Assembly (NCBI RefSeq): GCF_040358255.1
Contig: NZ_CP132938.1
Coordinates: 2,542,001-2,606,000, forward strand
Direction: 5' to 3'
DNA from: Tunturibacter gelidoferens
GTDB taxonomy: Bacteria > Acidobacteriota > Terriglobia > Terriglobales > Acidobacteriaceae
DNA length: 64,000 nt
Both the position numbers and the translations under genes were made by a program. Of the stretch, positions 1-14,636 are shown piece by piece. The notes under the pieces are model-generated. The model was not told the origin of the DNA and made no database searches. It worked only from the letters and a program-made list of their open reading frames with translations. Every line of letters starts with the position of its first letter. Within the stretch, counting starts at the first letter, position 1.

Positions 1-2465
1 GTCGCGGTAAGTTTGAGGGTCTGGAGCACGTCCTGTGCCGAGACCATAGTTGCTCGCAGAGTCGTGAGTGCGCCACGCCCTTTGGCCAAGGCTGATTCAG
101 AGAGCTGAAGGGCTCGACTGAGTATTGGCTTGCCTGCCGCTCCAGGAGGAGTCAACTCATCGGCGATCTCAAGTTGGAGGCTGATTCCCATGACATCCTG
201 GAGCAGATTGTCATGCAGATCCTGGGCCACTCGTGTGCGTTCGTCCAGCCGCTCTTCGAAACGCCGCCGAAGCCCATCGGCGACGGAACGAATCCTAAAC
301 CGGACCAGGAGGAGGATAGCCAGCAGCAGCGCCAAGAGGCATAGTGCGATGAACCATTTCGTCTGATAGAAGGCAGGTAACAGGGTGAAGTCCAAAGCAG
401 CGGGCTCCGTACTCCACACTCCATCGTCGTTCGCAGCCAGCACTTCAAAGCGGTACTTACCTGGAGGGAGATTCGTATAGGTCGCAAAGCGGCGTGTGGA
501 CTCCGCATTCCACTGAGCATCGAAACCCAGGAGCCGATAACGAAACGTTACCTTGCGAGGGTTGATGAAGCTGAGGCCAGTGTAGTTGATCTCGATGCGG
601 CGGGTTAGCGGAGGGAGGGTGATGGCTCTTGCGACCTCCACGTTCGCATCGTCTACCGTGAGCTGGACAATTTGCACGGGCGGAGGGACGGGGTTCTTGC
701 GGATGTGCGCAGGATCGATGGTGGCGAGGCCTTCCGATGTCGTGAGCCAGATGCGGCCATCGGGTAGAACCGCAACAGGAGTGCTGCCGTGGAGGTCTGG
801 GTTGTTGTGAAGGCCATCGCCGTCGTCATAAAAATCGTACGGAACAAGAAACTTTGGATCTGTTGCGGCATGCAGAAGATCACTGACAGTCACCGAGGCG
901 ACACCAATGTTGTAGCCGAGCCAGAGCCGGCCGCCTGGGCCTGGCACTGCCCAGAGAACTCGGCTGCCAGGCAGCCCGTTCTTTCTGGACCAAGAGGTAA
1001 ATCTACCTCCGCTGTAGCGCGCTAGGCCGCGTTCTGAAGCGATCCAGACACCGCCGTCGCTGTCGGCAGAGATGGCGTGGGGTGATCCGCCGGGCAGGTG
1101 ATCCGCGGCGGTGAACTGGTGGAAGGTGACACCGTTATAGAGGACGATCTCGCCGGTACTGAGTCCGAACCACACTTCTCCGTGCGTGCCTGCTGCAATG
1201 ACCGAAACGGCCTTGCTTTGGAGCGCAGGCGTGGTGACTGCGATGGCAACTTGCCCCGGCTCCCAGCGAAAGAGACCTCCGTGCTGGTCGTAGAACCAGA
1301 GTTCGCCAGTGGAAGATTGCGCTATGGATGTGATCTGTGTGACCTGAACGCCGGGCTGGACGACGTGACTGCGGCCATCCTTTACTACGCTTAGCCCGTG
1401 GGGCGTACCTGCGAACAAGGTGCCGTCGATGCCCCCCGTAAGGGAGAGGATGCTTTCGCGCAGCACGCTCTTCGCGCCTGTGGCCGTTATCTCGTTGAGG
1501 CCGACTGCTGATCCGGCAAAGACCTTGCTCCCGACTACCGCCAGCGAGGTCATGTTGTCGCTCAGAAGGCCTGAGCGGCGGGTCATGGTGGCGAACTTGT
1601 CATAGCGAAGTCGATTGAGTCCGTTCTGCGTCCCGATCCAGAGATTGTGTTCGCGGTCCTGAAAGAGGGTCCATACGGAGTCACTCGACAGGCCATCGAC
1701 GACGGAGAACTGTTCCTTTTCAGCGCGAGCTTCACCCACGGTAGTACTCACGCGGATGACACCGCTCTCTCGGGTTGCCAACCACAGGTTGCCATCGGTA
1801 TCGGGCAAGATGCTGCGAATCTGATCGGAGGCGAGATGCGTCCTGTCGAGGATGGACGGTGCAATATTGTGGGCGGACTGGAGACCGCATTCCGTTGGGT
1901 CGACTTTTGCCAGTGGCATCGACTGAGGTGGATGGGGCGCAGAAACGAGAGCCGAGGCCGACCGTACCTGACATGTTGTTGTAACCTGCATGGTCGCGGG
2001 AGAGACGCGGAAGACCTGATTCGAGGCCTCTACCTCGATCAGGGAATCGGGGCGCTCCCGGATCGACGAGATAGGCAGGTTGAGTGTCAGGCTTTTCATC
2101 GCGGGGCCATCGATCCGGACGAGTATCCCGGTCTCCGTGCCGACCCACAACGCACCATCTGCGCTTGCTGCAAGCGCTTTCACTTTACCGAAGGCTGTGT
2201 CTCCCTTGCCCATGAGCGGGACCTGGAAGAAACGAATGCCGTCAAAACGAATGAGACCGTCGGCTGTTCCCAGCCAGAGGAAGCCGTCGGGGGTCTGGGC
2301 GATGGCATAGATGGCGGCGGAGGGCAGGCCATCGCGGTGGCCCCATTGAGTGAGCGAATACTGGCTAATTCCTTGTTTGGCAGCTGGTCCGGCAGCAGAG
2401 CATTCGATCGGGCACAAGAACGCGCAAACACAAACGAATACGTGAAAAGAACGGCATGCCGACAT
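1..2465 (-). CDS. Beta-propeller sensor histidine kinase (3' end outside window)
   Basis: Membrane-bound sensor kinase of the two-component-regulator-propeller type. The start chosen is ATG at 2465 (MSACRSFHVFVCV...), which opens with a hydrophobic signal segment; the frame stays open to the window edge, so the C-terminal ATPase domain is not seen. Residues 30 to about 640 carry repeated propeller blades with motifs such as GFLWLGTADGLIRFDG, NLWIGTQNGLNRL and GELWFYDQHGGLFRW. A Y_Y_Y domain (LPPGKYRFEVLAANDDG) follows, then one membrane helix near residues 703-722 and a HisKA_3 dimerisation domain with the phospho-accepting histidine near residue 751 in DLHDNLLQD. The family is typically a polysaccharide or sugar sensor, periplasmic in its propeller part. 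The gene lies 48 bp behind rhaT on the same strand, so cotranscription with rhaT is likely. Ligand unknown; rhamnose or rhamnose-glycan sensing is an inference from position. Confidence 0.88.
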   Translation of the reverse strand, partial: MSACRSFHVFVCVCAFLCPIECSAAGPAAKQGISQYSLTQWGHRDGLPSAAIYAIAQTPDGFLWLGTADGLIRFDGIRFFQVPLMGKGDTAFGKVKALAASADGALWVGTETGILVRIDGPAMKSLTLNLPISSIRERPDSLIEVEASNQVFRVSPATMQVTTTCQVRSASALVSAPHPPQSMPLAKVDPTECGLQSAHNIAPSILDRTHLASDQIRSILPDTDGNLWLATRESGVIRVSTTVGEARAEKEQFSVVDGLSSDSVWTLFQDREHNLWIGTQNGLNRLRYDKFATMTRRSGLLSDNMTSLAVVGSKVFAGSAVGLNEITATGAKSVLRESILSLTGGIDGTLFAGTPHGLSVVKDGRSHVVQPGVQVTQITSIAQSSTGELWFYDQHGGLFRWEPGQVAIAVTTPALQSKAVSVIAAGTHGEVWFGLSTGEIVLYNGVTFHQFTAADHLPGGSPHAISADSDGGVWIASERGLARYSGGRFTSWSRKNGLPGSRVLWAVPGPGGRLWLGYNIGVASVTVSDLLHAATDPKFLVPYDFYDDGDGLHNNPDLHGSTPVAVLPDGRIWLTTSEGLATIDPAHIRKNPVPPPVQIVQLTVDDANVEVARAITLPPLTRRIEINYTGLSFINPRKVTFRYRLLGFDAQWNAESTRRFATYTNLPPGKYRFEVLAANDDGVWSTEPAALDFTLLPAFYQTKWFIALCLLALLLAILLLVRFRIRSVADGLRRRFEERLDERTRVAQDLHDNLLQDVMGISLQLEIADELTPPGAAGKPILSRALQLSESALAKGRGALTTLRATMVSAQDVLQTLKLTA

Positions 2466-2513: not shown

Positions 2514-3695
2514 CTAACGGGCGGTGATGGTGGTGGGGGCTTCGTTGGCTTTGAGGTAGTTGCCGTAGCCGACGACGATGGTGGAGCTGATGAGAAGGAA
2601 TAGCCCTGCGGCTACAAGGGTTTTGGTGCGGCGGCTGGTGCCTCGCCACTCTTTTAGGAAGAGGCCCCAGAGGGTGGCGAAGATGATGATGCTGGCCATG
2701 TGGAGGGTCCAGCTGGAGAAGTCGTACTTGCCCATCTTGGTCTGGCCCATGGAGTAGAAGAAGAACTGAAAGTACCAGATGACGCCGGCGAGCGAGGCGA
2801 AGATGTAGTTCTGGACGAGGGTTTTGGGGGCGAGGTGGTCGTAGGTTGAGGGGTCGAGTGGGTCGAAGTCGACCAGGGTCTGACCAGTGGCGTGGGAGGC
2901 GCGCATGGGGTTGAGGCCGGGTTGACCTGCGAACTGTTTGATGGAGCCGTTTTTGAGGATGAGGATGGCGGACCAGACGAAGTTGGTGAGGAAGCCTCCC
3001 CAGAGAACGACGATGAGGATGGGCAGGTTCTGCCAAAGGTCGAGGCGGTTATGGGCGAGGAGTTCGGTTTTGGCGAGGGCTCCGATAGGGGCGCCGGCTT
3101 TGAGGCCGAAGGCGAAGAAGGAGCTCATGACGCCGGCGAAGATTGCTACTGCTAGGCCTTTGCCGAAGTTGTAGTCGGTCTCTCCGGCTTCGGCTTTTTC
3201 TTCGGGGGTGACCTCGCGCTCTTTGGAGAGGCCGGCGGCTCCGTTGACGGCTACGGCGATGAGACAGATCAGCACGCCTACGAGGATGATCTGGCCGGAT
3301 GTCTCGTGGAGGATGACGTGGATGGAGCCGTCGTAGATGGGCGGGATGAGGGTGCCGAAGGCGGTGCAGAGGCCGAGGGCGATGGCGTATCCGAGGGCGA
3401 TGCCGAGGTAGCGGATGGCGAGGCCGAAGGTGAGGCCGCCTGCTCCCCAGAGGATGCCCCAGAAGATGGCGTAGTGGATACTGGAGGCGGGCGCGGCGTG
3501 GAGGATGCCGAAGAGATTAGGGACTAAGAGGCTTGCGAGGACGACTGGCGCGACGATCCAGGCGGCGAATCCCTGGATGAGCCAGTAGATCTCCCATGAC
3601 CAGCGCTTGATGCCGCGGAAGGGGATGAAGTTGGTGGCGGAGGCGAAACCGCCGATCCAGTGATAGATGACGCCGATGAAAGGATTGGGTCCCAC
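2514..3695 (-). CDS. rhaT: L-rhamnose/proton symporter RhaT
   Basis: Inner-membrane permease of the RhaT family, importing L-rhamnose with a proton. The 393-residue product is somewhat longer than the enterobacterial protein (about 344) and shows about ten hydrophobic helices. Family signatures are visible: the N-terminal stretch ending in KRWSWEIYWL, the LAIRYLGIALGYAIALGL helix, and the late segment GVIWYFQFFFYSMGQTKMG followed by SSWTLHMASIIIFATLWGL and LKEWRGTS, all close to the E. coli RhaT pattern. Start ATG at 3695. It is divergent from lutA with a 120-bp gap that holds a putative operator (3772-3791), and is followed by a propeller histidine kinase. With rhaI, rhaB and the aldolase/dehydrogenase in the same 17 kb, the rhamnose assignment is well supported. 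Confidence 0.93.
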   Translation of the reverse strand: MGPNPFIGVIYHWIGGFASATNFIPFRGIKRWSWEIYWLIQGFAAWIVAPVVLASLLVPNLFGILHAAPASSIHYAIFWGILWGAGGLTFGLAIRYLGIALGYAIALGLCTAFGTLIPPIYDGSIHVILHETSGQIILVGVLICLIAVAVNGAAGLSKEREVTPEEKAEAGETDYNFGKGLAVAIFAGVMSSFFAFGLKAGAPIGALAKTELLAHNRLDLWQNLPILIVVLWGGFLTNFVWSAILILKNGSIKQFAGQPGLNPMRASHATGQTLVDFDPLDPSTYDHLAPKTLVQNYIFASLAGVIWYFQFFFYSMGQTKMGKYDFSSWTLHMASIIIFATLWGLFLKEWRGTSRRTKTLVAAGLFLLISSTIVVGYGNYLKANEAPTTITAR

Positions 3696-3761
3696 GAGGC
3701 CTCGTTCTGGTGAATGATGGTGATGCTAGGGTTGAGCGGGTACTATCGTACCTGACGCGAG

Positions 3762-3790
3762 TTGCGTTAGGGAAATATACTCTCTATTGA
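3762..3790 (+). promoter_or_regulatory. Candidate promoter of lutABC
   Basis: TTGCGT (3762-3767), 17-nt spacer, TATTGA (3785-3790), reading towards lutA. The spacer and -10 are covered by the 20-bp motif at 3772-3791, a layout that would suit repression. Inferred from sequence only. Confidence 0.4.
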
Positions 3791-3791
3791 A
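3772..3791 (-). promoter_or_regulatory. Putative rhamnose/lactate regulon operator, copy 1
   Basis: GAAATATACTCTCTATTGAA on the plus strand. Its exact reverse complement, 20 of 20 bases, occurs at 6745-6764 upstream of rhaI. This copy lies in the divergent gap between rhaT (minus) and lutA (plus), so on the minus strand it reads towards rhaT in the same orientation as copy 2 reads towards rhaI. The core AATA-N7-TATT is a weak dyad. The likely binder is the HTH/periplasmic-binding-protein regulator at 11230-12330; that is inference. Confidence 0.6.
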
Positions 3792-3815
3792 TCTTATTCC
3801 TGGATCGCTGCTTCG

Positions 3816-4568
3816 TTGGAGGTTGGTCTGCGAGTTTCACTGTTCATCACCTGTTATAACGACACTCTGTTTCCTGAGACCGGTAAGGCTGTGGTGAGGG
3901 TGCTGGAGCGTCTGGGGCATACTGTGGAGTTTCCACGAGGGCAAACATGCTGCGGGCAGATGCACTATAACACTGGCTACCAGGCGGAGGCGATGCCCCT
4001 GCTGGAGCGGTTTGTTGCGCAGTTTCGTGGGGCGGAGGCTGTGGTGGTTCCTTCGTCCTCGTGTGTGGCGATGATGCGAGATCACTATCCGAAGATGGCT
4101 TTGGCGATCGGCCGGCGGGAGTTGATTGTGGAGGTTGAGGAACTGCTGCCAAAGGTGTTTGAGTTTTCAGAGTTTCTGACGAAGCGGCTGGGGCTGGAGG
4201 ATGTGGGGGCTTATTATCCGCATCGGGTGACGTATCACGCGAGCTGCCATGGGTTGAGAAATCTGTTGCTGGGTGATGGACCGATGCGGCTGCTGAAGGC
4301 GGTGAGAGGGATTGATCTGGTGGAGTTGGAGGGGCTGGAACAGTGCTGCGGATTCGGCGGGACGTTTGCCGTGAAGAACGCTGATGTTTCGAGCGCGATG
4401 CTGGCGGAGAAGACGACGGCGGTCTTGAATACAAAGGCGGAGGCTTGTACGGCTTGCGATAACTCTTGCCTGATGCATCTTCAGGGAGCGTTACATCGGC
4501 AGAAGACGGGAGTCAGGACAGTGCATCTGGCGGAGATTCTGGCAGGGGAAGACGGGGATAGGCAATGA
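3816..4568 (+). CDS. lutA: L-lactate oxidation iron-sulfur protein LutA
   Basis: Subunit of the LutABC complex that oxidises L-lactate to pyruvate in the cytoplasm. The product has two CCG domains: TCCGQMHYNTGY near residue 46 and QCCGFGGTFAVKN near residue 177, with further cysteines in FITCYND and ASCHGLRNL, the CX(n)CCGX(n)CXXC arrangement that binds iron-sulfur clusters. About 245 residues, usual for the family. The start is uncertain. TTG at 3816 opens the frame, but a strong GGAGG (3818-3822) lies inside it and would serve CTG at 3828, giving LRVSLFITCYND, which matches where LutA proteins normally begin (M[KR]VSLF). lutB starts inside the lutA stop (ATGA, 4565-4568), so translation is coupled. 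Placed between rhaT and rhaI, it would consume the L-lactate made from rhamnose. Confidence 0.9.
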   Translation: MEVGLRVSLFITCYNDTLFPETGKAVVRVLERLGHTVEFPRGQTCCGQMHYNTGYQAEAMPLLERFVAQFRGAEAVVVPSSSCVAMMRDHYPKMALAIGRRELIVEVEELLPKVFEFSEFLTKRLGLEDVGAYYPHRVTYHASCHGLRNLLLGDGPMRLLKAVRGIDLVELEGLEQCCGFGGTFAVKNADVSSAMLAEKTTAVLNTKAEACTACDNSCLMHLQGALHRQKTGVRTVHLAEILAGEDGDRQ

Positions 4569-6022
4569 GTGGGGTTGGGTTGGATCCGAAGACCGCTCCG
4601 ACGTTTCCGATGGCGGCGAAGGCGATGCTGGGAGATACGCAGCTGCGGAAGAATGTGCGGCATGCTACGGATGTGATCCAGGGCAAGCGGGCTCGTGTTG
4701 TCGGCGAGATGCCTGATTGGCAGGAGTTGCGTGAGGCGGGCAGGCAGATTCGCCAGCACACGATGAAGTATCTGGATTTTTATCTCGAGGAGTTTGAGGC
4801 CAACTGCACGCGCGCTGGTGGAGTGGTGCATTGGGCTCGGGATGCGGAGGAGGCGCGAGGGATTGTTGTCGGACTGGTGAAGGCCTCGGGATCGGATGAA
4901 GTGATCAAGATCAAGTCGATGACGACGGAGGAGATTGAACTGAACACGGCGCTGGAGGCGGCGGGGATTCATGCGTTTGAGACCGATCTGGCGGAGTTGA
5001 TCATTCAGTTAGGGGAGGATCGGCCTTCGCATATTGTTGTGCCTGCTCTGCATAAGAACAGGCAACAGATTCGTGAGATCTTTCAGCGCAAGATGAATCT
5101 GCCGGAGTTGGGCGAGAGGCCGGAGGATCTGGCGGATGCGGCGCGAATGTTTTTGCGGGAGAAGTTTCTGCGGGTGAAGACGGCGGTGAGTGGGGCGAAT
5201 TTTTTGATTGCGGAGACGGGCGGTGTTTGTGTGGTGGAGAGCGAAGGCAACGGACGGATGTGTCTGACGCTGCCGGAGACGCTGATTACGATTGCGGGGA
5301 TTGATAAGGTGCTGCCTAGGTTTCAGGACCTTGAGGTGATGCTGCAGTTGCTGCCTCGGTCTGCTACCGGAGAGCGGATGAATCCTTATAACTCGATCTG
5401 GACTGGGGTGGATGCTGCGGATGGCCCGCGAGTGTTTCATGTGGTGTTGATGGATAATGCGCGGACGGAGATTCTGGCGGATGAGGAGGCGCGGCAGACG
5501 TTGAACTGCATCCGATGCGGGGCGTGCCAGAATGCCTGCCCGGTGTATCGGCAGACGGGTGGGCATGCGTATGGGAGCGTGTATGCGGGGCCGATTGGTG
5601 CGATTTTGACGCCGCAGTTGCAGGAGATGCAGCATGCACAGTCGCTGCCCTATGCGTCTTCGCTGTGCGGAGCGTGCTACGAGGTTTGCCCGGTGAAGAT
5701 CAACATCCCGGAGGTACTGATTCATTTGCGGAATAGGGTGGTGAGGCAGAATACGGCTGGGGTCGCGGGATTCTTTGACGTGGAGGCCGGCGCGATGAAG
5801 GCGATGGCGATGATCTTTCGGAGTGAGAGGAGATTCAGGGCGGTGCAGCGGCTGGGGCGGGTGGCGGAGGGGCCGCTGGTGCATAAGGATGGACAGGGTG
5901 AGGGGTGGATCCGGTGGCTGCCGGGGCTGCTGGGCGGGTGGACGCAGGTTAGAGATCTGCGGGAGATGCCGAAGGAGACATTTCGAGACTGGTGGGAGAG
6001 GCGGGGCGACAATGGCAACTGA
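4565..6022 (+). CDS. lutB: L-lactate oxidation iron-sulfur protein LutB
   Basis: Electron-transfer subunit of the LutABC lactate-oxidising complex. Of 485 residues, about 60-300 form an LUD (lactate-utilisation) domain (IRQHTMKYLDFYLEEFEAN, FLIAETGGVCVVESEGNGR) and two 4Fe-4S ferredoxin-type motifs follow: CIRCGACQNACPVYRQTGG near residue 317 and CGACYEVCPVKINIPE near residue 371. Length matches LutB/YkgF proteins. ATG at 4565 overlaps the lutA stop by four bases. The stop (6020-6022) lies inside lutC, an 11-bp overlap. The operon order lutA-lutB-lutC is the classical one. Confidence 0.95.
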   Translation: MSGVGLDPKTAPTFPMAAKAMLGDTQLRKNVRHATDVIQGKRARVVGEMPDWQELREAGRQIRQHTMKYLDFYLEEFEANCTRAGGVVHWARDAEEARGIVVGLVKASGSDEVIKIKSMTTEEIELNTALEAAGIHAFETDLAELIIQLGEDRPSHIVVPALHKNRQQIREIFQRKMNLPELGERPEDLADAARMFLREKFLRVKTAVSGANFLIAETGGVCVVESEGNGRMCLTLPETLITIAGIDKVLPRFQDLEVMLQLLPRSATGERMNPYNSIWTGVDAADGPRVFHVVLMDNARTEILADEEARQTLNCIRCGACQNACPVYRQTGGHAYGSVYAGPIGAILTPQLQEMQHAQSLPYASSLCGACYEVCPVKINIPEVLIHLRNRVVRQNTAGVAGFFDVEAGAMKAMAMIFRSERRFRAVQRLGRVAEGPLVHKDGQGEGWIRWLPGLLGGWTQVRDLREMPKETFRDWWERRGDNGN

Positions 6023-6689
6023 TACGGTTACAAATTCGACGCGGGATGAGGTTTTGCGGCGAATCAGGGCGGCTACAGGTGGAACTTCGGATGGGGGTGT
6101 GGCGAAGGCTGGGTGGGAGGGGATTGCGCGGGATTATAGGCGGAAGGGGACGCGGGAGCGCGAGGGGGTGCTGGCGCTGCTGGAGGATCGTCTGCGGGAC
6201 TATGACGCGCGGGTGGTCCGTGTTGCGGGTGGGAGAGTAGCGCAGAGTGTGGCGGAGATGCTGGCTGAGCGCGGAGTTCGGCGGATGGTGGTGCCGGTGG
6301 GATTGCCTGTTGCGTGGCTGCCGGCTGCAGCGGGGGCCGGTGGAGTGGAGTTTGTTGTCGATGAGGGTCTGTCGTCGGGAGACTTGGATGATTTTGATGG
6401 GGTGATGACGGGGGCGACGCTGGCGATTGCGGAGACGGGGACGTTCGTGCTGCAGAGTGTCGCCGGGCAGGGGAGACGGGCGGCGACGCTGGTGCCGGAT
6501 TACCACCTCTGTGTTGTGAGGGCGGAGGATGTGGTGGAGACGGTGCCGGAGTCTATGGCGCAGCTACAACGGACCGCGGGGCTGGCGACTACGTTTGTTT
6601 CGGGGCCGTCTGCGACGGCAGATATCGAGATGACACGGATCAAAGGGGTGCATGGGCCGCGATTTCTGGATGTGATCCTGATTGTTTGA
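6012..6689 (+). CDS. lutC: Lactate utilisation protein LutC (LUD domain)
   Basis: Third subunit of the LutABC complex. ATG at 6012 (MATDTVTNSTRDEVL) is chosen over an upstream in-frame ATG at 5823, because the extra 63 residues would lie wholly inside lutB and read as shadow sequence. The 225-residue product is the size of LutC/YkgG and consists of a single LUD domain: GVMTGATLAIAETGTFVLQS is the hallmark stretch, followed by PDYHLCVVRAEDVVETVPE and a C-terminal SGPSATADIEMTRIKGVHGP. It overlaps lutB by 11 bp. After its stop there is a 112-bp gap to rhaI containing the second operator copy; no clear terminator is visible, so read-through into rhaI is possible. Confidence 0.93.
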   Translation: MATDTVTNSTRDEVLRRIRAATGGTSDGGVAKAGWEGIARDYRRKGTREREGVLALLEDRLRDYDARVVRVAGGRVAQSVAEMLAERGVRRMVVPVGLPVAWLPAAAGAGGVEFVVDEGLSSGDLDDFDGVMTGATLAIAETGTFVLQSVAGQGRRAATLVPDYHLCVVRAEDVVETVPESMAQLQRTAGLATTFVSGPSATADIEMTRIKGVHGPRFLDVILIV

Positions 6690-6744
6690 AGCGTGGAAAA
6701 AATCTTTTGACAAATGGCAGTAAAAAGGCGCAGTCTGCTGATGT

Positions 6745-6764
6745 TTCAATAGAGAGTATATTTC
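6745..6764 (+). promoter_or_regulatory. Putative rhamnose/lactate regulon operator, copy 2
   Basis: TTCAATAGAGAGTATATTTC, 38 bp before the rhaI start, is an exact reverse complement of the site at 3772-3791. A chance match of 20 bases within a few kilobases is very unlikely, and both sites are in promoter positions of rhamnose genes. It is AT-rich beside high-G+C genes. Confidence 0.6.
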
Positions 6765-6801
6765 TATATCGTAATATCTTGGATCTGTGAGGGATTGAGA
6801 G

Positions 6802-8007
6802 ATGGGAAACAACGGTGCAGGGGTTGCAGAGCGGGATGCACAAAGAGTGTTCAGTGCACTGGATAGTTTTCGAATCGAAGTTCCTTCCTGGGGATTTGCG
6901 AATACCGGTACGCGGTTCGGAAAGTTTGTACAGGGCGGGGCTGCGACGACGATTGAAGAAAAGTTCAGCGATGCCGCGCAGGTGAATACATTGACTGGGG
7001 CAAGCCCTACGGTGGCGCTGCACGTGCTGTGGGATCTACCAAATGGGACGGCCGATATTCCTGCGATTCAGGCGCTCGAGAAGAAGTATGGAATGAAGGC
7101 AGGATCGATCAATCCGAATCTGTTTCAGAGCGCAGAGTATAAGTATGGATCGATTGCGAATCCGAGCGCGGAGATTCGCGGGATTGCGCTGAAGCATCTG
7201 CTGGACTCTGCGGAGATTGGGCGGGAGCTTGGGTCGAAAGATTTGTCGTTGTGGATTGCGGATGGGTCGAACTATCCCGGGACGCAGAGCATTCGTAAGC
7301 GGATTGGATGGATGGAAGAGGTGCTGGGTGCGGTTCATGCTGCGCTGGGTGAAGATCAACGGATGCTGATCGAGTACAAGCCGTTCGAACCGGCTTTTTA
7401 TCACACCGATATTGCCGACTGGGGGATGGCGCTGGAGTTGGTGCGACGGTGCGGGCCGAAGGCGAAGGTGCTGGTGGATACGGGGCATCATCCGCCAGGG
7501 ACAAATATTGAACAGATCGTGACGTGGTTGCTGCACGTGAAGGAGCTGGGTGGGTTTCATTTCAACGACCGGAAGTACGCGGACGATGACCTGACGCTGG
7601 GCTCGATCGATCCTTACCAGGTGTTTCGCATCTTCCATGAAATTCTGAGTGCGGACGAGAAGGATCGTGCGGATGTCGCGTTCATGATCGACCAGAGCCA
7701 TAACCTGAAGGGCAAGGTGGAGGCGATGGTGCAGACAGTGGTGACGGCGCAGGAGCTATATGCGAAGGCGGCGCTGATCAATCAGGCGAGGCTTGCGGAG
7801 TTGCAGCAGGAGTGTCGGCTGGTGGAGGCGGAGGAGTGCTTTAGAGACACCTTCTGGCACGATGTGCGGCCGGTTGTGAGGGAGTGGCGTGTGGCACGTG
7901 GATTACCGGTGGAACCTCTGAAGGCGTTGGCGGAGAGTGGGTATGTGGAGAAGATTACACGTGAGCGAGCGAGCAGGAATGCACGTAGCGTTTCGAGCTA
8001 CGTCTGA
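6802..8007 (+). CDS. rhaI: L-rhamnose isomerase, RhaI type
   Basis: Cytoplasmic metal-dependent aldose-ketose isomerase turning L-rhamnose into L-rhamnulose. The 401-residue sequence is a xylose-isomerase-like TIM barrel of the Pseudomonas stutzeri/Gram-positive rhamnose isomerase subtype rather than E. coli RhaA. Visible motifs are VPSWGFANTGTRFGKFVQGG near the N-terminus, ALHVLWDLP, LSLWIADGSNYPGTQS, MLIEYKPFEPAFYHTDIADW (metal-binding glutamate region), KVLVDTGHHPPGTNIEQI and ELGGFHFNDRKYADDDLTLG (metal-binding histidine/aspartates). Start ATG at 6802 after a purine-rich GAGGGATTGAGAG. Its stop overlaps the convergent propeller-GGDEF gene by 10 bp (7998-8007). Upstream lies operator copy 2. 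Confidence 0.9.
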   Translation: MGNNGAGVAERDAQRVFSALDSFRIEVPSWGFANTGTRFGKFVQGGAATTIEEKFSDAAQVNTLTGASPTVALHVLWDLPNGTADIPAIQALEKKYGMKAGSINPNLFQSAEYKYGSIANPSAEIRGIALKHLLDSAEIGRELGSKDLSLWIADGSNYPGTQSIRKRIGWMEEVLGAVHAALGEDQRMLIEYKPFEPAFYHTDIADWGMALELVRRCGPKAKVLVDTGHHPPGTNIEQIVTWLLHVKELGGFHFNDRKYADDDLTLGSIDPYQVFRIFHEILSADEKDRADVAFMIDQSHNLKGKVEAMVQTVVTAQELYAKAALINQARLAELQQECRLVEAEECFRDTFWHDVRPVVREWRVARGLPVEPLKALAESGYVEKITRERASRNARSVSSYV

Positions 8008-11000
8008 GAGATGTTGTCGTCATCATGGCGGTCGCGAGTGGTGACGGGTCGCTTAGGTTGTCTCGTAGAGAGCGCCTGGCTGTGGGGGCTGGGGTGGAAG
8101 ACGATGCGGTTGCGACCAGAGGCCTTGGCGGCGTAGAGAGCTTCGTCGGAGTGTCGGATCATGTCTTCCACGCTGATGGTTTCGAGGTTGATCCAGGCTG
8201 CTCCGAAGCTTGAGGTCACGTGGATGGACTCGGCGAGATAGAAAAATGGAGTCTGGGAGATGGCGTGCTGGATCTGGCTGAGACGCGCAGGAGGATCGCC
8301 TTCAGGAAGCCCTGGCAGAACGATGAGGAACTCTTCTCCGCCGTAGCGCCCGATGAAGTCCGAGGGGCGGATGTTTTGTGCCATGCGATGAGCTGCGTCG
8401 CGCAGGATGAGATCGCCGGCGAGGTGGCCGAGGGTGTCATTGATTTTTTTGAAGTAGTCGATGTCTGCCAGAACGACGGCTAATTGAGTGCCGTCGCGGC
8501 GGGCGTGGTCCAACTCGCGCTGAAGGATGTCGAGGATTGCGGATCGGTTCCACAGGCCTGTCAGTGCATCGTGAGTGGCCTGGTGGTGGAGAGCTTCGCG
8601 GGTTGTGAGGAGCTCCCTCTTTTCGGCTTCGAGTTCGCTGGTGCGCTGTGCGACGAGTTTTTCCAATAGCAGCTGTCGCTTGATGAGCCGGCGCTCGCGC
8701 AGATGCCAGAAGAGGAGAGAGCAGAGGAAGGAGAAGACCGCGAGGCAGAGATAGAAGGTGCGGGTACGCCACCAGGGAGGCCGGATGGAGACTGCGAAGG
8801 ATACGATGGCGGAGTGTCTTTGCTGATCAGGGTCAATTGCTTCGACTTCGAAGCGGAAGCTGCCGGGTGGCATGGCGGCGTAGTGCAGATGGTGCGAGGC
8901 GGTCTGATTCCATGCGGGCTCGAGGCCGAGGAGGCGATATCGAAAGAGCGTGGAGCCCTGACGGTCGTAGTTGAGTGAGGTGAATGCGACGTCGAGTGGA
9001 GCGTCGCGCCAACGCCATACATCTTTGTTGGCAGCGAGATTGAGAGGGCGGGTGCCGAGGGTCGCGGACTCGATCATCACCTTGAGAGGCACGTTGGAGA
9101 AGAGGTGTTCGGGATGGAGGAGATGAATGGCTCCGCCGTTGACGCCGACCCAGACGGAGCCGTCGGCGTCGGCGAGGAAGGCTCCTTCATTGGTGTCGTT
9201 GGAGATGAGACCGTCGCGTTGGGTGAGGAGCTTCCAGACTGTTCCGTTGAAGACGTTGACGCCGAGGTCGGTTCCGACCCAGAGCCAGCCGCGGCGGTCG
9301 AAGCGGACGAACTGAACGTCGGTAGAGACGATCTCGGGGCTGGCAAAAGACGCAACGAGATGGCCTTGATTGCTGTCGATGCGGAGATGGAGCAGGGAAG
9401 GAAGGCCGCCGCCGATCCAGAGGGTGCCGTCAGCTGCGGCGGCGATGCCACGCATCTGTCCCTGGATGAGGGATTTGTCGAGGGTGATCTCGGTCCATTG
9501 ATCGGGCTCGTTGAATTGGTTGCGCGAGAGACGGTAGAGATGATGGTCGGAGATGAACCAGAGTGTGCCATTGGCGGCTTCGGTTGCGTTTGCGAAGGCA
9601 TCGGTGGCGGTGAGGGCGTTGTCGACCTTTTCGGGGTGAGGATCTGAGACCGGATCCTTGATGACGTATAGGCCTTCGCGAGAGAGTAGCCAGATGCGAT
9701 GGGAGGAGTCGGTGAAGAGCCTGGCGATGGTTGGCAGCTTTGCGATCTGGGTGAATCGCCGGGTGGCGGGATTGGAGTGCAAGAGCTGGCCGTAGATGTT
9801 GACGATCCAGAGGGAGCCGTCGGGAGATTGGGTGATGCCGTCTGTCTTTTCGAAGGGAGCTGGCGGAAGAGCCTTTGACGGGAGGATGTGGTTTTGAGCT
9901 TCGTCGAGCTGGCTTACCTGAGATTCGTCCCCGAACCAGATGTGTCTTTGACGATCGCGGAAGATGGTCCAGACGATGTCGTTGCTGAGGCCCTGAGAGA
10001 CTGTCCAGTTTTCTACGTCGTCGTAGCCGAGCCAGCGGCGGAGACCATGTCCGCGGCTGCTGAACCAGAGGGAGCCGTTCTGGTCGGAGAAGATGGTGCT
10101 GATGTCGGGGAAATCGAGGCCGTTGGCGCGGTCGAAGAACTGCCAACGATCGCCGCTCCAACGGGCTATGCCGGAGGCGGTCTGCGTCAGGACGCATCCG
10201 TTGCGATCTTCGGCGATGGTGAGGATACCTGATCCGCTGAAGGTCCCGAGGGTGTCCGGAGCTATGCTGCGGTCAATGAAGGCGCTGCTTCCGGGGGTGA
10301 GAGCGCGGATGTGCTGGCTGTCTCTTATCCAGAGCGCATTCTGGCGATCACGAAAGATAACTCGCCACGGCTCGGCGGAAACTCCTTGTTGAGCGCCCAG
10401 TATTTCGATCTGACTTCCGTTGATGTGACAGAGCTGTTGTGCGCAGCCCAGCCAGAGGGTGCCGTCGCGATCTGCGAAGACGTTGTGCAGCTGGGAGAGC
10501 GCGGGATGTGTGGCGATCTGCTGAGGATTGAAGTAGGGCGTGACGATCCAGTGTTGCGGCGTGCCGGCGGGCTGAGCGAGCATCAACGCGCCCTTGTTGA
10601 GGAAGAGGATGTGGCGGGAGTCGATGGAAGTGAGATGCTGGCCGGGGGTGAACTGTGCGCCGGGTGTGAAGGGAATGGCTTCGAAGCGAGAGCCCGAGAG
10701 ATAGTAGAGGTGATCGTTGGTCGCTACCCAGATGCGGCCGGAGTCGTCCTGATAGACGTCGATGACCAGGCTTTCGAGGATTCCGTCAGCCGCACCAAAG
10801 CGATGAAACTCTGCGCCGTCGTAGCGAAAGAGGCCGTTTTCGGTGGCGGCCCAGAGATATCCTGTCTTGTCCTGTATGAGTTTGAAGACGTCGTGATTTT
10901 TGAGGCCTTCGTCCTGATCGAAGCGTTGAAAGGTAAATTGCTGGGCGTTGAGATGGAGCGTTATGGCCAAGAGGATCGCTATGATCGACGGGAGCGGGAA

Positions 11001-11057
11001 GGTAAAGGGAAAGGCGGGTGTGTTGGGACGGGGCAAGGTATTTCTCTTGTAGCACAC
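7998..11057 (-). CDS. Beta-propeller sensor diguanylate cyclase (GGDEF)
   Basis: Signal-transducing enzyme expected to make cyclic di-GMP in response to an extracytoplasmic ligand. The order in 1019 residues is: N-terminal hydrophobic segment (about 15-38), a two-component-regulator propeller up to about 690 (repeats such as GYLWAATENGLFRYDG, ALWIRDSQHIRAL, GWLWVGTDLGVNVFNG), a Y_Y_Y domain (MPPGSFRFEVEAIDP), a membrane helix (TFYLCLAVFSFLCSLLFW), a short coiled coil (LEKLVAQRTSELEAEKREL), and a GGDEF domain starting at HDALTGLWNRS. The active site reads GGEEF near residue 906, and RPSD five residues before it is an intact inhibitory I-site. It therefore looks catalytically competent. It shares its sensor design with the kinase at 1-2465 and is convergent with rhaI. 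Confidence 0.92.
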   Translation of the reverse strand: MCYKRNTLPRPNTPAFPFTFPLPSIIAILLAITLHLNAQQFTFQRFDQDEGLKNHDVFKLIQDKTGYLWAATENGLFRYDGAEFHRFGAADGILESLVIDVYQDDSGRIWVATNDHLYYLSGSRFEAIPFTPGAQFTPGQHLTSIDSRHILFLNKGALMLAQPAGTPQHWIVTPYFNPQQIATHPALSQLHNVFADRDGTLWLGCAQQLCHINGSQIEILGAQQGVSAEPWRVIFRDRQNALWIRDSQHIRALTPGSSAFIDRSIAPDTLGTFSGSGILTIAEDRNGCVLTQTASGIARWSGDRWQFFDRANGLDFPDISTIFSDQNGSLWFSSRGHGLRRWLGYDDVENWTVSQGLSNDIVWTIFRDRQRHIWFGDESQVSQLDEAQNHILPSKALPPAPFEKTDGITQSPDGSLWIVNIYGQLLHSNPATRRFTQIAKLPTIARLFTDSSHRIWLLSREGLYVIKDPVSDPHPEKVDNALTATDAFANATEAANGTLWFISDHHLYRLSRNQFNEPDQWTEITLDKSLIQGQMRGIAAAADGTLWIGGGLPSLLHLRIDSNQGHLVASFASPEIVSTDVQFVRFDRRGWLWVGTDLGVNVFNGTVWKLLTQRDGLISNDTNEGAFLADADGSVWVGVNGGAIHLLHPEHLFSNVPLKVMIESATLGTRPLNLAANKDVWRWRDAPLDVAFTSLNYDRQGSTLFRYRLLGLEPAWNQTASHHLHYAAMPPGSFRFEVEAIDPDQQRHSAIVSFAVSIRPPWWRTRTFYLCLAVFSFLCSLLFWHLRERRLIKRQLLLEKLVAQRTSELEAEKRELLTTREALHHQATHDALTGLWNRSAILDILQRELDHARRDGTQLAVVLADIDYFKKINDTLGHLAGDLILRDAAHRMAQNIRPSDFIGRYGGEEFLIVLPGLPEGDPPARLSQIQHAISQTPFFYLAESIHVTSSFGAAWINLETISVEDMIRHSDEALYAAKASGRNRIVFHPSPHSQALSTRQPKRPVTTRDRHDDDNISQT

Positions 11058-11229
11058 CGCAGATTGGAAAACACAGAGGGTTACATTACCGTCTTTCTAG
11101 GAACTGTAGGGAGCGAAAGTCGACGGTGCGTACTGTTTGCTTCCGGGCCAGACGGGGAATTCCATTAGCGAAACTAACGCATGTGCCGCATAATGGATCG
11201 GCTGAGTGGTTGCTCCTCAGCGGGAGACT

Positions 11230-12330
11230 ATGGCGGTACGAAAGACCTCGAAAAGACTTTATCTGATTCCTGTGTTGTCGAAGGCGCTGGATATTCTGGA
11301 GCTGCTGCAGTCGGAAAATCAGCCGATGACGCTGGAATCGATCCATCGACAGACGCGGATCTCGAAGACGACCGTCTACCGGGTGTTGAAGACGTTTGTT
11401 CATCGCGGATATCTTTCGCAGTCCCCCGATGGGATGTACCGGCAGGTGACGCGGCCGAAGAAGATGCGTTTCGGGTTTGGCGGGCAGAGCGCGGATATGC
11501 CGTTTTCGGTGGAGGTGACCGAGAGTTTGAAGGATGCGGCTGCGGCGGTGGGCGTCGATCTGCTGATTCTGGATAACCGTTATGACTCTGCAACTGCTTT
11601 GAGGAACGCAGAAGAGTTTGTCTCAAGCAAAGTGGATCTGGTGATCGAGTTCCAGGTGGAGCAAGAGGTTGCGCCGATGATCGGTGACAAGATTGCGGGA
11701 GCGAAGATTCCGCTGATTGCGATCGATATTCCGCATCCTCACGCGACTTATTTTGGAGTGGATAACTACCGGGTTGGAATTGAGGCGGGAGAGACGCTGG
11801 GGGCGCATGCGACGACGAGTTGGGAGGGGAAGGTTGATTGGGTGATCGGGCTGGATCTGGCTGAGGCGGGGCAGCTGGTGCAGAGCCGGATTACGGGTGC
11901 GTTTGAAGGAGTGAGGAGTGGACATCCGGAGTTACCGGTGGAGGTCTTTGTTCGGATCGACGGGCGGGGGATGCGCGACCGGAGTAAGAAGCTGATCTCG
12001 GATTTTCTGCAGCGACATCCCAAGGACAGACACATTCTGATTGCTGCGGCTACGGACTCGAGTGCGCTGGGTGCGGTGGATGCGGTGCGAGAGCAGAAAC
12101 GCGAGAAGCATGTGGCGATTGTGGGGCAGGATTGCATTGCAGAGGCCATGCAGGAGATGCGGAAGGACAAATCACCGCTGATCGGATCGGTTTCGCATGA
12201 GGCGAGCTCGTATGGGCCGAGTTTGATTCATCTTGGACTGTCACTGCTGCGGGGACAGACGGTTCCTCCTTACAACTATGTGGCCCATAAGATGGTGACC
12301 CGGGAGTCACTTAGTGTAGTGCAAGTTTGA
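11230..12330 (+). CDS. Transcription regulator: IclR-type HTH fused to periplasmic-binding domain
   Basis: Probable sugar-responsive regulator of the rhamnose island. ATG at 11230 (MAVRKTSKRLYLIPVL) is preferred to the GTG at 11206 because a GGGAG lies just before it. Residues about 14-70 form an IclR-like winged helix (LSKALDILELLQSENQPMTL, TRISKTTVYRVLKTFVHRGY). Residues about 85-366 form a type I periplasmic-binding fold as in ribose-binding proteins and LacI effector domains (DLLILDNRYDSATALRNAEE, KIPLIAIDIPHPHATYFGVD, VGQDCIAEAMQEM). There is no signal peptide, so it is cytoplasmic. LacI proteins have the same sensor with a different HTH, and IclR proteins the same HTH with a different sensor. 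No ABC transporter genes are near. It lies between rhaI and the aldolase gene; binding to the 20-bp sites is inferred. Confidence 0.85.
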   Translation: MAVRKTSKRLYLIPVLSKALDILELLQSENQPMTLESIHRQTRISKTTVYRVLKTFVHRGYLSQSPDGMYRQVTRPKKMRFGFGGQSADMPFSVEVTESLKDAAAAVGVDLLILDNRYDSATALRNAEEFVSSKVDLVIEFQVEQEVAPMIGDKIAGAKIPLIAIDIPHPHATYFGVDNYRVGIEAGETLGAHATTSWEGKVDWVIGLDLAEAGQLVQSRITGAFEGVRSGHPELPVEVFVRIDGRGMRDRSKKLISDFLQRHPKDRHILIAAATDSSALGAVDAVREQKREKHVAIVGQDCIAEAMQEMRKDKSPLIGSVSHEASSYGPSLIHLGLSLLRGQTVPPYNYVAHKMVTRESLSVVQV

Positions 12331-12425
12331 GGGTTATTTTCTCATTGGAAATAGTTGCCGTATTGGTGTTGTGTGTGGAATGATAGTCGGGGCCTGGAAT
12401 TGGCCGAGACGATAGAGGTTGACAC

Positions 12426-14636
12426 ATGACGACGGCACAGAGTGGGCTGCGGTTTTTGGAAGATCGTTGGGACGAGGCGGTCGCGGCAAAACTGGATGCA
12501 CCGGAGCTGCTGAGATATAGATCGAACCTGTTGGGTTCGGATCTGCGGATTACCAACTTCGGCGGTGGAAATACCAGTTCGAAGCTGGAGCAGGTCGATC
12601 CGCTGGATGGAGGGACGAAGCAGATTCTTTGGGTGAAGGGGAGCGGAGGAGATCTGGGCAGCATCAAGCGTGCGGGGTTTGCGACGCTTTACATGGAGAA
12701 GCTGCTGGCGCTGGAGAAGGCGTATCGCGGGGTCGATCTCGAAGACGAGATGGTGGAGATGTACCCGCTGTGTACGTTCGGGAATAATCCTGTTGCGGCT
12801 TCGATTGATACTCCGCTGCATGGCTTTTTGCCGTTTGCCCATGTGGACCATCTGCACCCGGACTGGGGGATCGCGCTGGCGGCCTCGGCGAATGGGAAGA
12901 TCAAGATGGAGGAGTTCAATAAGGAGTTTGGACACAAGCTGGTGTGGCTGCCTTGGCAGAGGCCCGGGTTTGAGCTGGGCATGATGTTGAAGAAGATCGT
13001 GGAGGAGACGCCGGGGTGCGATGGCGTGGTGCTTGGCGGCCATGGGCTGTTTACGTGGGGAGATACGCAGCGCGAGAGCTACCTGAATACGATTACGATC
13101 ATCGATCAGCTGGGGCAGTTTATTGAACGGCATGGTTCCGTTGCGGGGCATGTGCACTTTGGCGGGCGCGAGGTAAAGATTCGCGAGGACAGGGCGGACG
13201 TGGCCTTGCGGGTGATGCCCTATCTGCGTGGGGTTGTGTCGCGTAAGCAGAGGTGGATTGGGAGTTTTAGTGATCTGCCGCAGGTGATGGAGTTTGTGAA
13301 CTCGGCGGAGGCGGAGAAGCTGGCGCACCTGGGGACGAGCTGCCCGGACCACTTTATTCGAACGAAGATTCGGCCGATGTTTATCAAGTGGAACCCGGCG
13401 GGTGAGCCAGCGGAGTTGAAGGAGCTGATCGAGACGTCGCTTGAGACGTATCGTGTGGAGTATGCGGAGTACTACAAAAAACACGCGGTGAAGGATTCGC
13501 CTGCTGTGCGCGATGCAAGCCCCACGGTGGTTCTGGTGCCGGGTGTGGGAATGTTCAGCTTTGGAAAGAACAAGACGGAGTCGCGGATTACCGGCGAGTT
13601 CTATATCAATGCGATTGGCGTGATGCAGGGCGCGGGGGCTCTGGGCGGGGGTGTGGTCTGCAACGATATTCCACAGGCTGGACCGGCGGCTTCCGCGGAT
13701 CAGTTTACGGTGCATGCGAACTATGTTGCGCTACCGCCGAGTGAGGCGTTTCGGATTGAGTACTGGAAGCTGGAAGAGGCGAAGATTCGCAGACAGCCGC
13801 CGGAGAAGGAGTTGAGCCGGCGAGTCGCTCTGGTAGTTGGCGGAGGGAGCGGGATTGGGCGTGAGGTCGCACTGCTTGCGGCTCAGCGCGGAGCGCATGT
13901 TGTGGTTGCCGACCGCGATGTAAAGGGTGCAGAGGCGGTTGCTGAAGAGGTGAAGGCGATTGCCGGGAAAGAGGCTGTCAGCTGGACGAGCATTGATATT
14001 CGTGACCGGAAGACGATCAAGGCTGCTCTCGAGTCGACGGTGAAGCAGTTTGGTGGAATCGATATCTTGATCAATACGGCTGCCTTGTTTCCTTCGTCGC
14101 CGGATGGTGTGATCAGTGATGCGCAGTGGGCTTTGACGCTCGAAGTTAATGTCACGGCGAACTACCTGCTGACGGATGAGGCGGCGAAGATCTTCGCGGA
14201 GCAGGGACTGGACGCGAGCGTGGTGCTGACGAGTTCGGCGAATGCGGTTGTGGCGAAGCGTGGCAGCGAGGCGTACGACGTGAGTAAGGCGGCGTTGAGT
14301 CACCTGGTTCGGGAGCTGGCGGTTTCGCTTTCGCCTAAGGTGCGGGTGAATGGGATTAGTCCGGCTACGGTGGTGAAGGGCTCGACGATGTTTCCGCGGG
14401 ATCGCGTGATTGCTTCGTTGAAGAAGTACAAGCTGCCATTTGAAGAGACGAATACGGATGACGGCCTGCGGAACGTTCTGGCGCAGTTTTATGCAACGCG
14501 GACTCTGACCCATCAGCCCATTGATCCGAAGGATTGTGCGGAGGCGATTATGTTTCTTGCGGGGCCTCTGGCTCGCTGCACGACGGGGCACTTGATTCCG
14601 GTGGATGGCGGTTTGACGGAAGCCTATCTGCGATAG
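12426..14636 (+). CDS. rhaD: Bifunctional rhamnulose-1-phosphate aldolase / lactaldehyde dehydrogenase (SDR)
   Basis: Two-domain enzyme of rhamnose catabolism. Residues about 30-430 are a class II aldolase that splits L-rhamnulose 1-phosphate into DHAP and L-lactaldehyde; the zinc-site stretch LGGHGLFTWG and the N-terminal NFGGGNTSSK are visible. Residues about 463-736 are a short-chain dehydrogenase with the nucleotide motif GGGSGIGREVA and catalytic YDVSK near residue 617, expected to oxidise L-lactaldehyde to L-lactate. The length of 736 exceeds a plain aldolase (about 275) but fits the known aldolase-dehydrogenase fusion family. ATG at 12426; a 95-bp gap separates it from the regulator and rhaB follows 24 bp downstream. 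Its lactate product links directly to LutABC at 3.8-6.7 kb. Confidence 0.94.
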   Translation: MTTAQSGLRFLEDRWDEAVAAKLDAPELLRYRSNLLGSDLRITNFGGGNTSSKLEQVDPLDGGTKQILWVKGSGGDLGSIKRAGFATLYMEKLLALEKAYRGVDLEDEMVEMYPLCTFGNNPVAASIDTPLHGFLPFAHVDHLHPDWGIALAASANGKIKMEEFNKEFGHKLVWLPWQRPGFELGMMLKKIVEETPGCDGVVLGGHGLFTWGDTQRESYLNTITIIDQLGQFIERHGSVAGHVHFGGREVKIREDRADVALRVMPYLRGVVSRKQRWIGSFSDLPQVMEFVNSAEAEKLAHLGTSCPDHFIRTKIRPMFIKWNPAGEPAELKELIETSLETYRVEYAEYYKKHAVKDSPAVRDASPTVVLVPGVGMFSFGKNKTESRITGEFYINAIGVMQGAGALGGGVVCNDIPQAGPAASADQFTVHANYVALPPSEAFRIEYWKLEEAKIRRQPPEKELSRRVALVVGGGSGIGREVALLAAQRGAHVVVADRDVKGAEAVAEEVKAIAGKEAVSWTSIDIRDRKTIKAALESTVKQFGGIDILINTAALFPSSPDGVISDAQWALTLEVNVTANYLLTDEAAKIFAEQGLDASVVLTSSANAVVAKRGSEAYDVSKAALSHLVRELAVSLSPKVRVNGISPATVVKGSTMFPRDRVIASLKKYKLPFEETNTDDGLRNVLAQFYATRTLTHQPIDPKDCAEAIMFLAGPLARCTTGHLIPVDGGLTEAYLR

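Follow-up and report, generated by a model that had tools for sequence, protein, structure and literature searches.

Rhamnose regulators of the LacI, DeoR, and AraC families are described in the accessible part of PMC3870299, which counts seven non-orthologous types. The same part reports RhaR regulons in certain Actinomycetales and Rhodobacterales that include RhaEW together with L-lactate dehydrogenase genes (lldD, lldEFG). As far as their accessible text goes, PMC7074687 reports growth of Granulicella on rhamnose, and PMC6252331 describes an acidobacterium with two lutABC operons and no link to rhamnose. Here we describe a rhamnose locus of Tunturibacter gelidoferens, within a stretch of 64,000 nucleotides (nt) of contig NZ_CP132938.1 (positions 2,542,001 to 2,606,000; hereafter the window). 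A site of 20 base pairs (bp) recurs there before genes of rhamnose uptake (rhaT), rhamnose isomerization (rhaI), and L-lactate oxidation (lutABC), and in diverged form before the aldolase/dehydrogenase gene rhaEW. The locus is a real, conserved local rhamnose regulon. The 20-mer is probably the operator of an adjacent regulator, for which we coin the name RhaR; it would overlap promoters, with RhaR keeping the genes for uptake and breakdown of this plant sugar, and for oxidation of the lactate made from it, repressed in the absence of a rhamnose-type ligand.

A conserved site at the rhamnose and lactate genes

The 20-mer GAAATATACTCTCTATTGAA occurs at 3772-3791 on the forward strand (site 1), between rhaT and lutA, and the window scan recovers an exact inverted copy at 6745-6764 on the reverse strand (site 2), 5' of rhaI. 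Both are predicted RhaR operators on the basis of a genome scan and of conservation. The preliminary description of this DNA had reported the same pair and had stated that the copies face rhaT and rhaI in one orientation; both statements proved accurate. No further copy was found in the 64-kb window at up to three mismatches, and 100 shuffles gave 0 matches. At the same tolerance the whole genome of 5,581,845 bases has the 20-mer only twice, both times in the window.

The 20-mer is conserved across the genus Edaphobacter in the GTDB sense. Among 61 genomes, including that of the window, it was found at up to three mismatches in 29/37 members of the genus and in 0/24 genomes outside it, with two matches for the reversed control. 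Copies on both strands, ~3 kb apart, are present in 14 of these 29 genomes. In alignments anchored on the site, conservation is high inside the 20 bases and drops within 2-3 bases on either side. Part of the internal conservation of the 45 aligned sites follows from their selection for likeness to the 20-mer; the sharp edges and the fixed gene context do not.

A third, diverged site, GAAATAGTTGCCGTATTGGT, lies 5' of rhaEW at 12348-12367 on the forward strand (site 3), where both a weight-matrix scan and a pattern search detect it. Applied to upstream regions, the weight matrix identified GAAATAGTTGCYGTATTGRT, or sequences close to it, 5' of rhaEW in the majority of relatives covered. Site 3 keeps the outer halves GAAATA and TATTG at equal spacing and differs from the 20-mer in its 7-bp middle. 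The exact pattern GAAATANNNNNNSTATTGRW matches the window's genome three times, at sites 1-3 (reversed control, 0), and is matched in 45 of 60 genus genomes (reversed control, six matches). The preliminary description had seen no copy in the aldolase gap, which was wrong in substance because site 3 shares the outer halves and their spacing. With the pattern relaxed to two mismatches, the window's genome gives 38 matches versus 31 for the reversed control; these are near control level, and we therefore claim no sites beyond the three.

In related genomes, too, the site recurs in front of multiple rha transcription units. We searched 62 genus genomes, of which 53 have rhaI and 51 a regulator orthologue (E <= 1e-100), for the core GAAATANNNNNNNTATTGRW (GAAATA-N7-TATTGRW, 13 fixed positions) in the 300 nt preceding each gene. 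At no more than one mismatch, regulator-positive genomes have the core 5' of rhaT in 45/46 cases and 5' of lutA in 43/45. These two counts come from mostly identical intergenic regions, and they are somewhat favorable because the rhaT/lutA stretch of eight genomes (G012, G027, G032, G063, G065, G070, G080, and G085) was fetched through a motif match. The core precedes rhaI in 34/50, or in 46/50 at two mismatches, three of the latter (G015, G067, and G083) having an otherwise-oriented site between rhaI and a divergent rhaT. For rhaEW the figures are 34/43 and 40/43, and the earlier suggestion that the aldolase and kinase genes might be controlled otherwise is not supported. Inspection of the regions before rhaT, lutA, and rhaI in relatives, a check proposed in the preliminary description, thus finds the site conserved at the orthologues. 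At the same limit of one mismatch the core was found in 0/41 regions 5' of rhaB, 0/45 5' of lutB, and 0/50 5' of rhaR (3/50 at two mismatches), and the regulator's upstream region indeed lacks a copy, as first described. One hundred column-permuted motifs matched a mean of 0.02-0.15 genomes per gene at up to one mismatch, with a maximum of 8. Among eight rhaI genomes outside the genus, the core was found in 0/8 at up to one mismatch and in 1/8 (G044) at two, approximately background; the TTTCAATA half was found in none of them, the best candidates being off at 3-5 of 11 positions. A contig-edge artefact for rhaR in G013 was dropped from the counts, lutC matches in relatives were set aside because the lutC query was out of frame, and site-to-start distances are approximate, the start codons having been extrapolated from protein matches.

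The site has a partly symmetrical structure. Position pair 3/17 is complementary in all distinct sites (16 of lutA, 18 of rhaI, and 19 of rhaEW) and pair 4/16 in 15, 16, and 18 of them, respectively; pairs 7/13 and 2/18 almost never are. One site (L195) reads, by eye, as a perfect inverted repeat, AATAGAA-T-TTCTATT. The site is thus a partial palindrome, which would fit a dimer without proving one.

The regulator and its link to the site

Presence of the site goes together with that of a regulator orthologue whose gene lies at or close to the rha locus. Of 51 regulator-positive genomes, 46 have an exact core match next to a rha or lut gene (the exceptions are G004, G007, G015, G067, and G083), and in the 11 regulator-negative ones no such match was found. 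Nine of these 11 have no core match at all; G006 and G064, likewise without rhaI, have a single uninspected match each. Co-occurrence, like the off-locus counts below, was tallied by hand. Three genomes (G008, G021, and G081) have rhaI and no regulator, and 0/5 of their upstream regions carry the site at two mismatches. Of the 20-mer, their rhaI regions retain GRGAGTATATTTC or a close variant of it but not the TTTCAATA half. Because only one part is kept where the regulator is missing, the 20-mer appears composite, which suggests a promoter element merged with a regulator half site.

Rearranged loci separate the genes from one another. Divergent rhaT and rhaI share one site in E. aggregans (G033, also L176) and have two, one per gene, in L184, with no lutA/lutB match in either locus. 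Conversely, the lutA site is present in G010 and G032 though their loci have no rhaT match; by eye, the neighbors of lutA there are peptidase-like and amidase-like reading frames. Given these layouts, rhaT/rhaI and lutABC are each independently tied to the site. L194 and L195 have a single site, in the gap that separates rhaT from a divergent row of rhaI-rhaEW-rhaB-lutAB. The earlier proposal of one regulator for uptake, isomerization, and lactate oxidation is thus supported by comparison, through conserved sites, co-occurrence with the regulator, and placement independent of the rhaT/lutA pair.

RhaR combines domains of two kinds. It is encoded at 11206-12330 on the forward strand, probably from the ATG at 11230. 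An IclR winged helix-turn-helix (HTH; PF09339, 54.8 bits versus a cut-off of 22) is followed by Peripla_BP_4 (PF13407), and the effector region also matches PF00532. Pfam detects no IclR C-terminal effector domain, with Peripla_BP_4 in its place, and a LacI-type HTH at the N terminus is not among the Pfam matches. Across 29 proteins, namely RhaR of the window and 28 orthologues with 63-96% identity, the HTH region SKTTVYR..LKT shows little or no variation. An AlphaFold2 model of RhaR has a mean predicted local distance difference test score (pLDDT) of 87.0 and a predicted template modelling score (pTM) of 0.74. The best fold matches of its C-terminal domain are ribose- and glucose-binding proteins (TM-score up to 0.89 of the target), and a sequence search of solved structures with RhaR returns chiefly periplasmic sugar-binding proteins. 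Judged by the model, this domain belongs to the ribose/glucose-binding type; the fold search names no ligand.

Relatives of RhaR occur beyond this locus. In named records they comprise four E. lichenicola proteins, 85-100% identical, and others from Granulicella, Silvibacterium, Acidipila, and Terriglobus. A paralogue of 61% identity is found in G001, G022, and G073 and lies near a GH78 alpha-L-rhamnosidase in G001 (L253, 1259-6238). In G083 a 59% paralogue follows a GH106 alpha-L-rhamnosidase (L256, 3288-7922), and in G024 a 49% paralogue has a LysR-type regulator on one side and a DUF6259 protein on the other. Several more full-length paralogues in the genus have 31-49% identity. Because paralogues adjoin rhamnosidases, a rhamnose-type ligand for RhaR is favored, not proven. 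A wider generalization has, in our estimate, about an even chance of being right: an as yet undescribed class of regulators with an IclR HTH and a ribose-binding-protein-like sensor, with paralogues by alpha-L-rhamnosidases, may run the rhamnose and pectin-sugar regulons of the Acidobacteriaceae, with the middle 7 bp of the operator serving as -10 or -35 and the outer halves binding the regulator. An acidobacterial-type rhaT-rhaI-rhaR locus with 78% regulator identity also occurs on a contig whose record names a Rhodanobacteraceae metagenome bin (L193, G067); the genome set puts this contig in the genus, so it was probably misbinned or mislabelled.

The gene names of the preliminary description are borne out by Pfam and NCBIfam matches. 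The L-rhamnose/proton symporter gene rhaT lies at 2514-3695 on the reverse strand (PF06379, 201.8 bits), and the other named genes are on the forward strand. Next come lutA at 3816-4568, for a cysteine-rich-domain protein of L-lactate oxidation (PF02754; the best NCBIfam model, part of LdhH, is below cut-off), lutB at 4565-6022, for an L-lactate oxidation iron-sulfur protein (TIGR00273, above cut-off), and lutC at 6012-6689, for a LUD-domain protein (PF02589 on the longer open reading frame; ATG 6012 chosen as start). No ATG lies close to the start of lutA, which may be TTG 3816, as listed, or a CTG at ~3828, after GGAGG. An L-rhamnose isomerase of the RhaI type is encoded by rhaI at 6802-8007 (TIGR02635, 493.8 bits, slightly under the cut-off of 531.35), the bifunctional rhamnulose-1-phosphate aldolase/lactaldehyde dehydrogenase by rhaEW at 12426-14636 (NF006189 and TIGR02632, above cut-off), and a rhamnulokinase-like FGGY kinase by rhaB at 14661-16145 (TIGR02627, 311.6 bits, below the cut-off of 527.95). 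RhaI, RhaB, and RhaT all score under the cut-offs of their closest NCBIfam equivalogs.

In 38/50 genomes with both genes, rhaR lies no more than 700 nt downstream of rhaI. The window's copy may therefore be separated from the rhaI promoter and lack autoregulation. Between the two genes, the window encodes on the reverse strand (7998-11057) a 1019-amino-acid protein with Reg_prop, Y_Y_Y, and GGDEF domains; such a protein occupies the same gap in G061 and G028.

Promoter geometry and alternative explanations

The sites overlap candidate promoter elements. Within 3650-3850 the sole sigma-70-like match is CTGACG-18-TATACT, a candidate lutA promoter at 3752-3781 (forward strand) with -35 CTGACG, an 18-nt spacer, and -10 TATACT at 3776-3781 inside site 1, in keeping with the preliminary placement of this copy over a candidate lut -10. 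A candidate rhaI -10, TATATT, lies in site 2 at 6757-6762 (forward strand) and is also present in the regulator-less G008, G021, and G081. A candidate rhaEW promoter (12355-12384, forward strand) would combine -35 TTGCCG in site 3, an 18-nt spacer, and an extended -10, TGG-AATGAT. TTGCYG, in the operator middle, would be the -35 here because a TGTGGAATGATAGT-like block is conserved 3' of the site in the rhaEW alignment. For rhaT, a GTCAGGTACGATAGT-like block is conserved ~20 nt beyond the site, and the block TACGATAGT at 3742-3750 (reverse strand), conserved in the lutA alignment, is a candidate -10. The hexamer TTGACA recurs 30-33 nt upstream of the site in 26/43 rhaI regions (6707-6712 in the window), so there may be a second rhaI promoter, with the site near its transcription start; no recognizable -10 follows this TTGACA. 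Such overlaps favor repression; the accessible part of PMC8579813 takes overlap of operator and promoter as a sign of repressors, the IclR-family KdgR included. The rhaT geometry would permit activation too.

Pieced together from sequence comparison, the mechanism might run as follows. RhaR, presumably dimeric, would bind the 20-bp pseudo-palindrome in the rhaT/lutA gap, upstream of rhaI, and, in its diverged form, before rhaEW-rhaB. The operator would cover the candidate lutA -10 and probably a rhaI -10, hold the probable rhaEW -35, and abut the probable rhaT -35 region, and RhaR bound to it would exclude RNA polymerase. Rhamnose or a pathway intermediate in the ribose-binding-protein-like domain would release RhaR from DNA, and this release would jointly switch on the pathway that leads from rhamnose, by way of lactaldehyde and L-lactate, to pyruvate.

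RhaR might instead be an activator that, ligand-bound, recruits RNA polymerase from sites beside -35 regions. We regard this as unlikely, with some points in its favor. The rhaT -10-like block would place the site at or just upstream of the -35, and the promoters of rhaI and rhaEW are poor matches to the sigma-70 consensus, as activator-dependent ones can be. However, lutA, the sole gene with a recognizable promoter, has its -10 inside the site, the rhaEW site probably contains the -35, and the TTGACA upstream of rhaI would put the site at or just after the transcription start; by the usage of PMC8579813, in its accessible part, overlap of this kind points to a repressor. It is more doubtful still that the 20-mer is read by another regulator, or by RNA polymerase with a particular sigma factor, instead of RhaR. 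Because GRGAGTATATTTC persists at rhaI of the three regulator-less genomes, part of the 20-mer does serve something else, probably polymerase. Yet the TTTCAATA half is lost precisely in these genomes, and the full site follows the presence of the regulator. Moreover, site 3 retains the outer halves and not the middle, and matches in the window's genome are limited to rha and lut promoters, unlike those of a general promoter element.

Exact inverted copies bracketing a three-gene block could also be the ends of an inserted or duplicated lutABC segment, or arise by chance, readings to which we give almost no credence. Across the genus each copy is conserved in its own right between flanks that have diverged, even in genomes without the lutABC block, and the genome and the shuffles hold no further copies. 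A scan of 3500-12600 found no Rfam family at gathering score. The conservation pattern, copy number, shuffles, and Rfam scan led us to reject chance, mobile-element ends, and an RNA element.

Several observations weigh against repression by RhaR at this operator. The lutA -10 hexamer is TATACT or TATAAT in 30/43 lutA sites and differs in 13, TATATT is kept in merely 25/43 rhaI sites, and the promoter scan found no sigma-70-like match around rhaI or rhaEW. No rhaI site was found in G005 and G074, and those of G003 and G036 have three mismatches. The regulator-less rhaI genomes number three and perhaps represent just one or two losses. Only imperfect sites are carried by G067 and by G015 and G083, whose regulators are 64-66% identical, and G004, a genome 63% complete, has the regulator with no rha gene found. 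Finally, exact core matches away from the locus number 19 in the 62 genomes, somewhat above the 11 of the reversed control.

Ten of these 19 off-locus matches were inspected. Three lie ~33-50 nt before a GDSL-type esterase gene beside secA, in G001, G073, and G022 (L150, L151, and L152, each at 5001-5020), the same three genomes that have the 61% RhaR paralogue. The best NCBIfam model of this esterase is the pectin acetylesterase PaeY, far under cut-off. A homologue is present in 31/60 genomes, with an exact core site at 4/30 loci scanned, those three and G030. The core match of G030 (L059, L201) coincides with its rhaT/lutA site; there, rhaT is directly followed by the esterase homologue on the same strand. 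It is possible that the esterase is a further regulon member acting on pectin. The remaining seven inspected matches are single (G007, G017, two in G029, G071, G078, and G082), four of them inside open reading frames. An identical core match off the rha locus, GAAATACGTAACTTATTGGA, occurs at G079:C1:1634694, G079:C1:2311493, and G002:C10:83094, perhaps within a repeated element.

Comparison with known systems

Regulatory logic of this kind has precedents. The accessible part of PMC3870299 contains neither this regulator architecture nor this operator or phylum, and 'IclR' and 'Acidobacter' give no match there. With its IclR HTH and Peripla_BP_4, RhaR stands outside the LacI, DeoR, and AraC families covered there. 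Among open-licence papers on IclR proteins with a periplasmic-binding domain or rhamnose, and on rhamnose regulation in Acidobacteriaceae or Edaphobacter, we found none describing this regulator or its operator. Operator, regulator, and regulon are directly testable in Acidobacteria, a group whose name stem does not appear in that part of the main comparative study of rhamnose regulons. If the proposal is true, RhaR adds one more non-orthologous type to the seven in PMC3870299, and lactate oxidation is once again wired to rhamnose use. The findings also suggest that these soil bacteria have a family of chimeric regulators comprising several paralogues, and the operator could possibly be used as a rhamnose-inducible genetic switch in the group.

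In the resemblances visible from the accessible part of PMC3870299, a local regulator would govern rhamnose uptake, RhaEW catabolism, and, in some genomes, L-lactate oxidation, with few target operons per genome and operators found by comparison. This regulon differs from those in its operator, its phylum, and its regulator, which pairs a DNA-binding domain of the IclR type with one for sugar binding. With IclR-family regulators, such as KdgR of Caldicellulosiruptor (PMC8579813, accessible part) and those with a PcaR/PcaU-type HTH, RhaR shares HTH_IclR and predicted operators over promoters, whereas Peripla_BP_4, of the ribose-/glucose-binding fold, replaces the IclR effector domain. Like LacI-family sugar regulators, RhaR has an effector domain of the periplasmic-sugar-binding fold and a near-palindromic predicted operator over promoters; unlike them, it has a DNA-binding domain of the IclR type.

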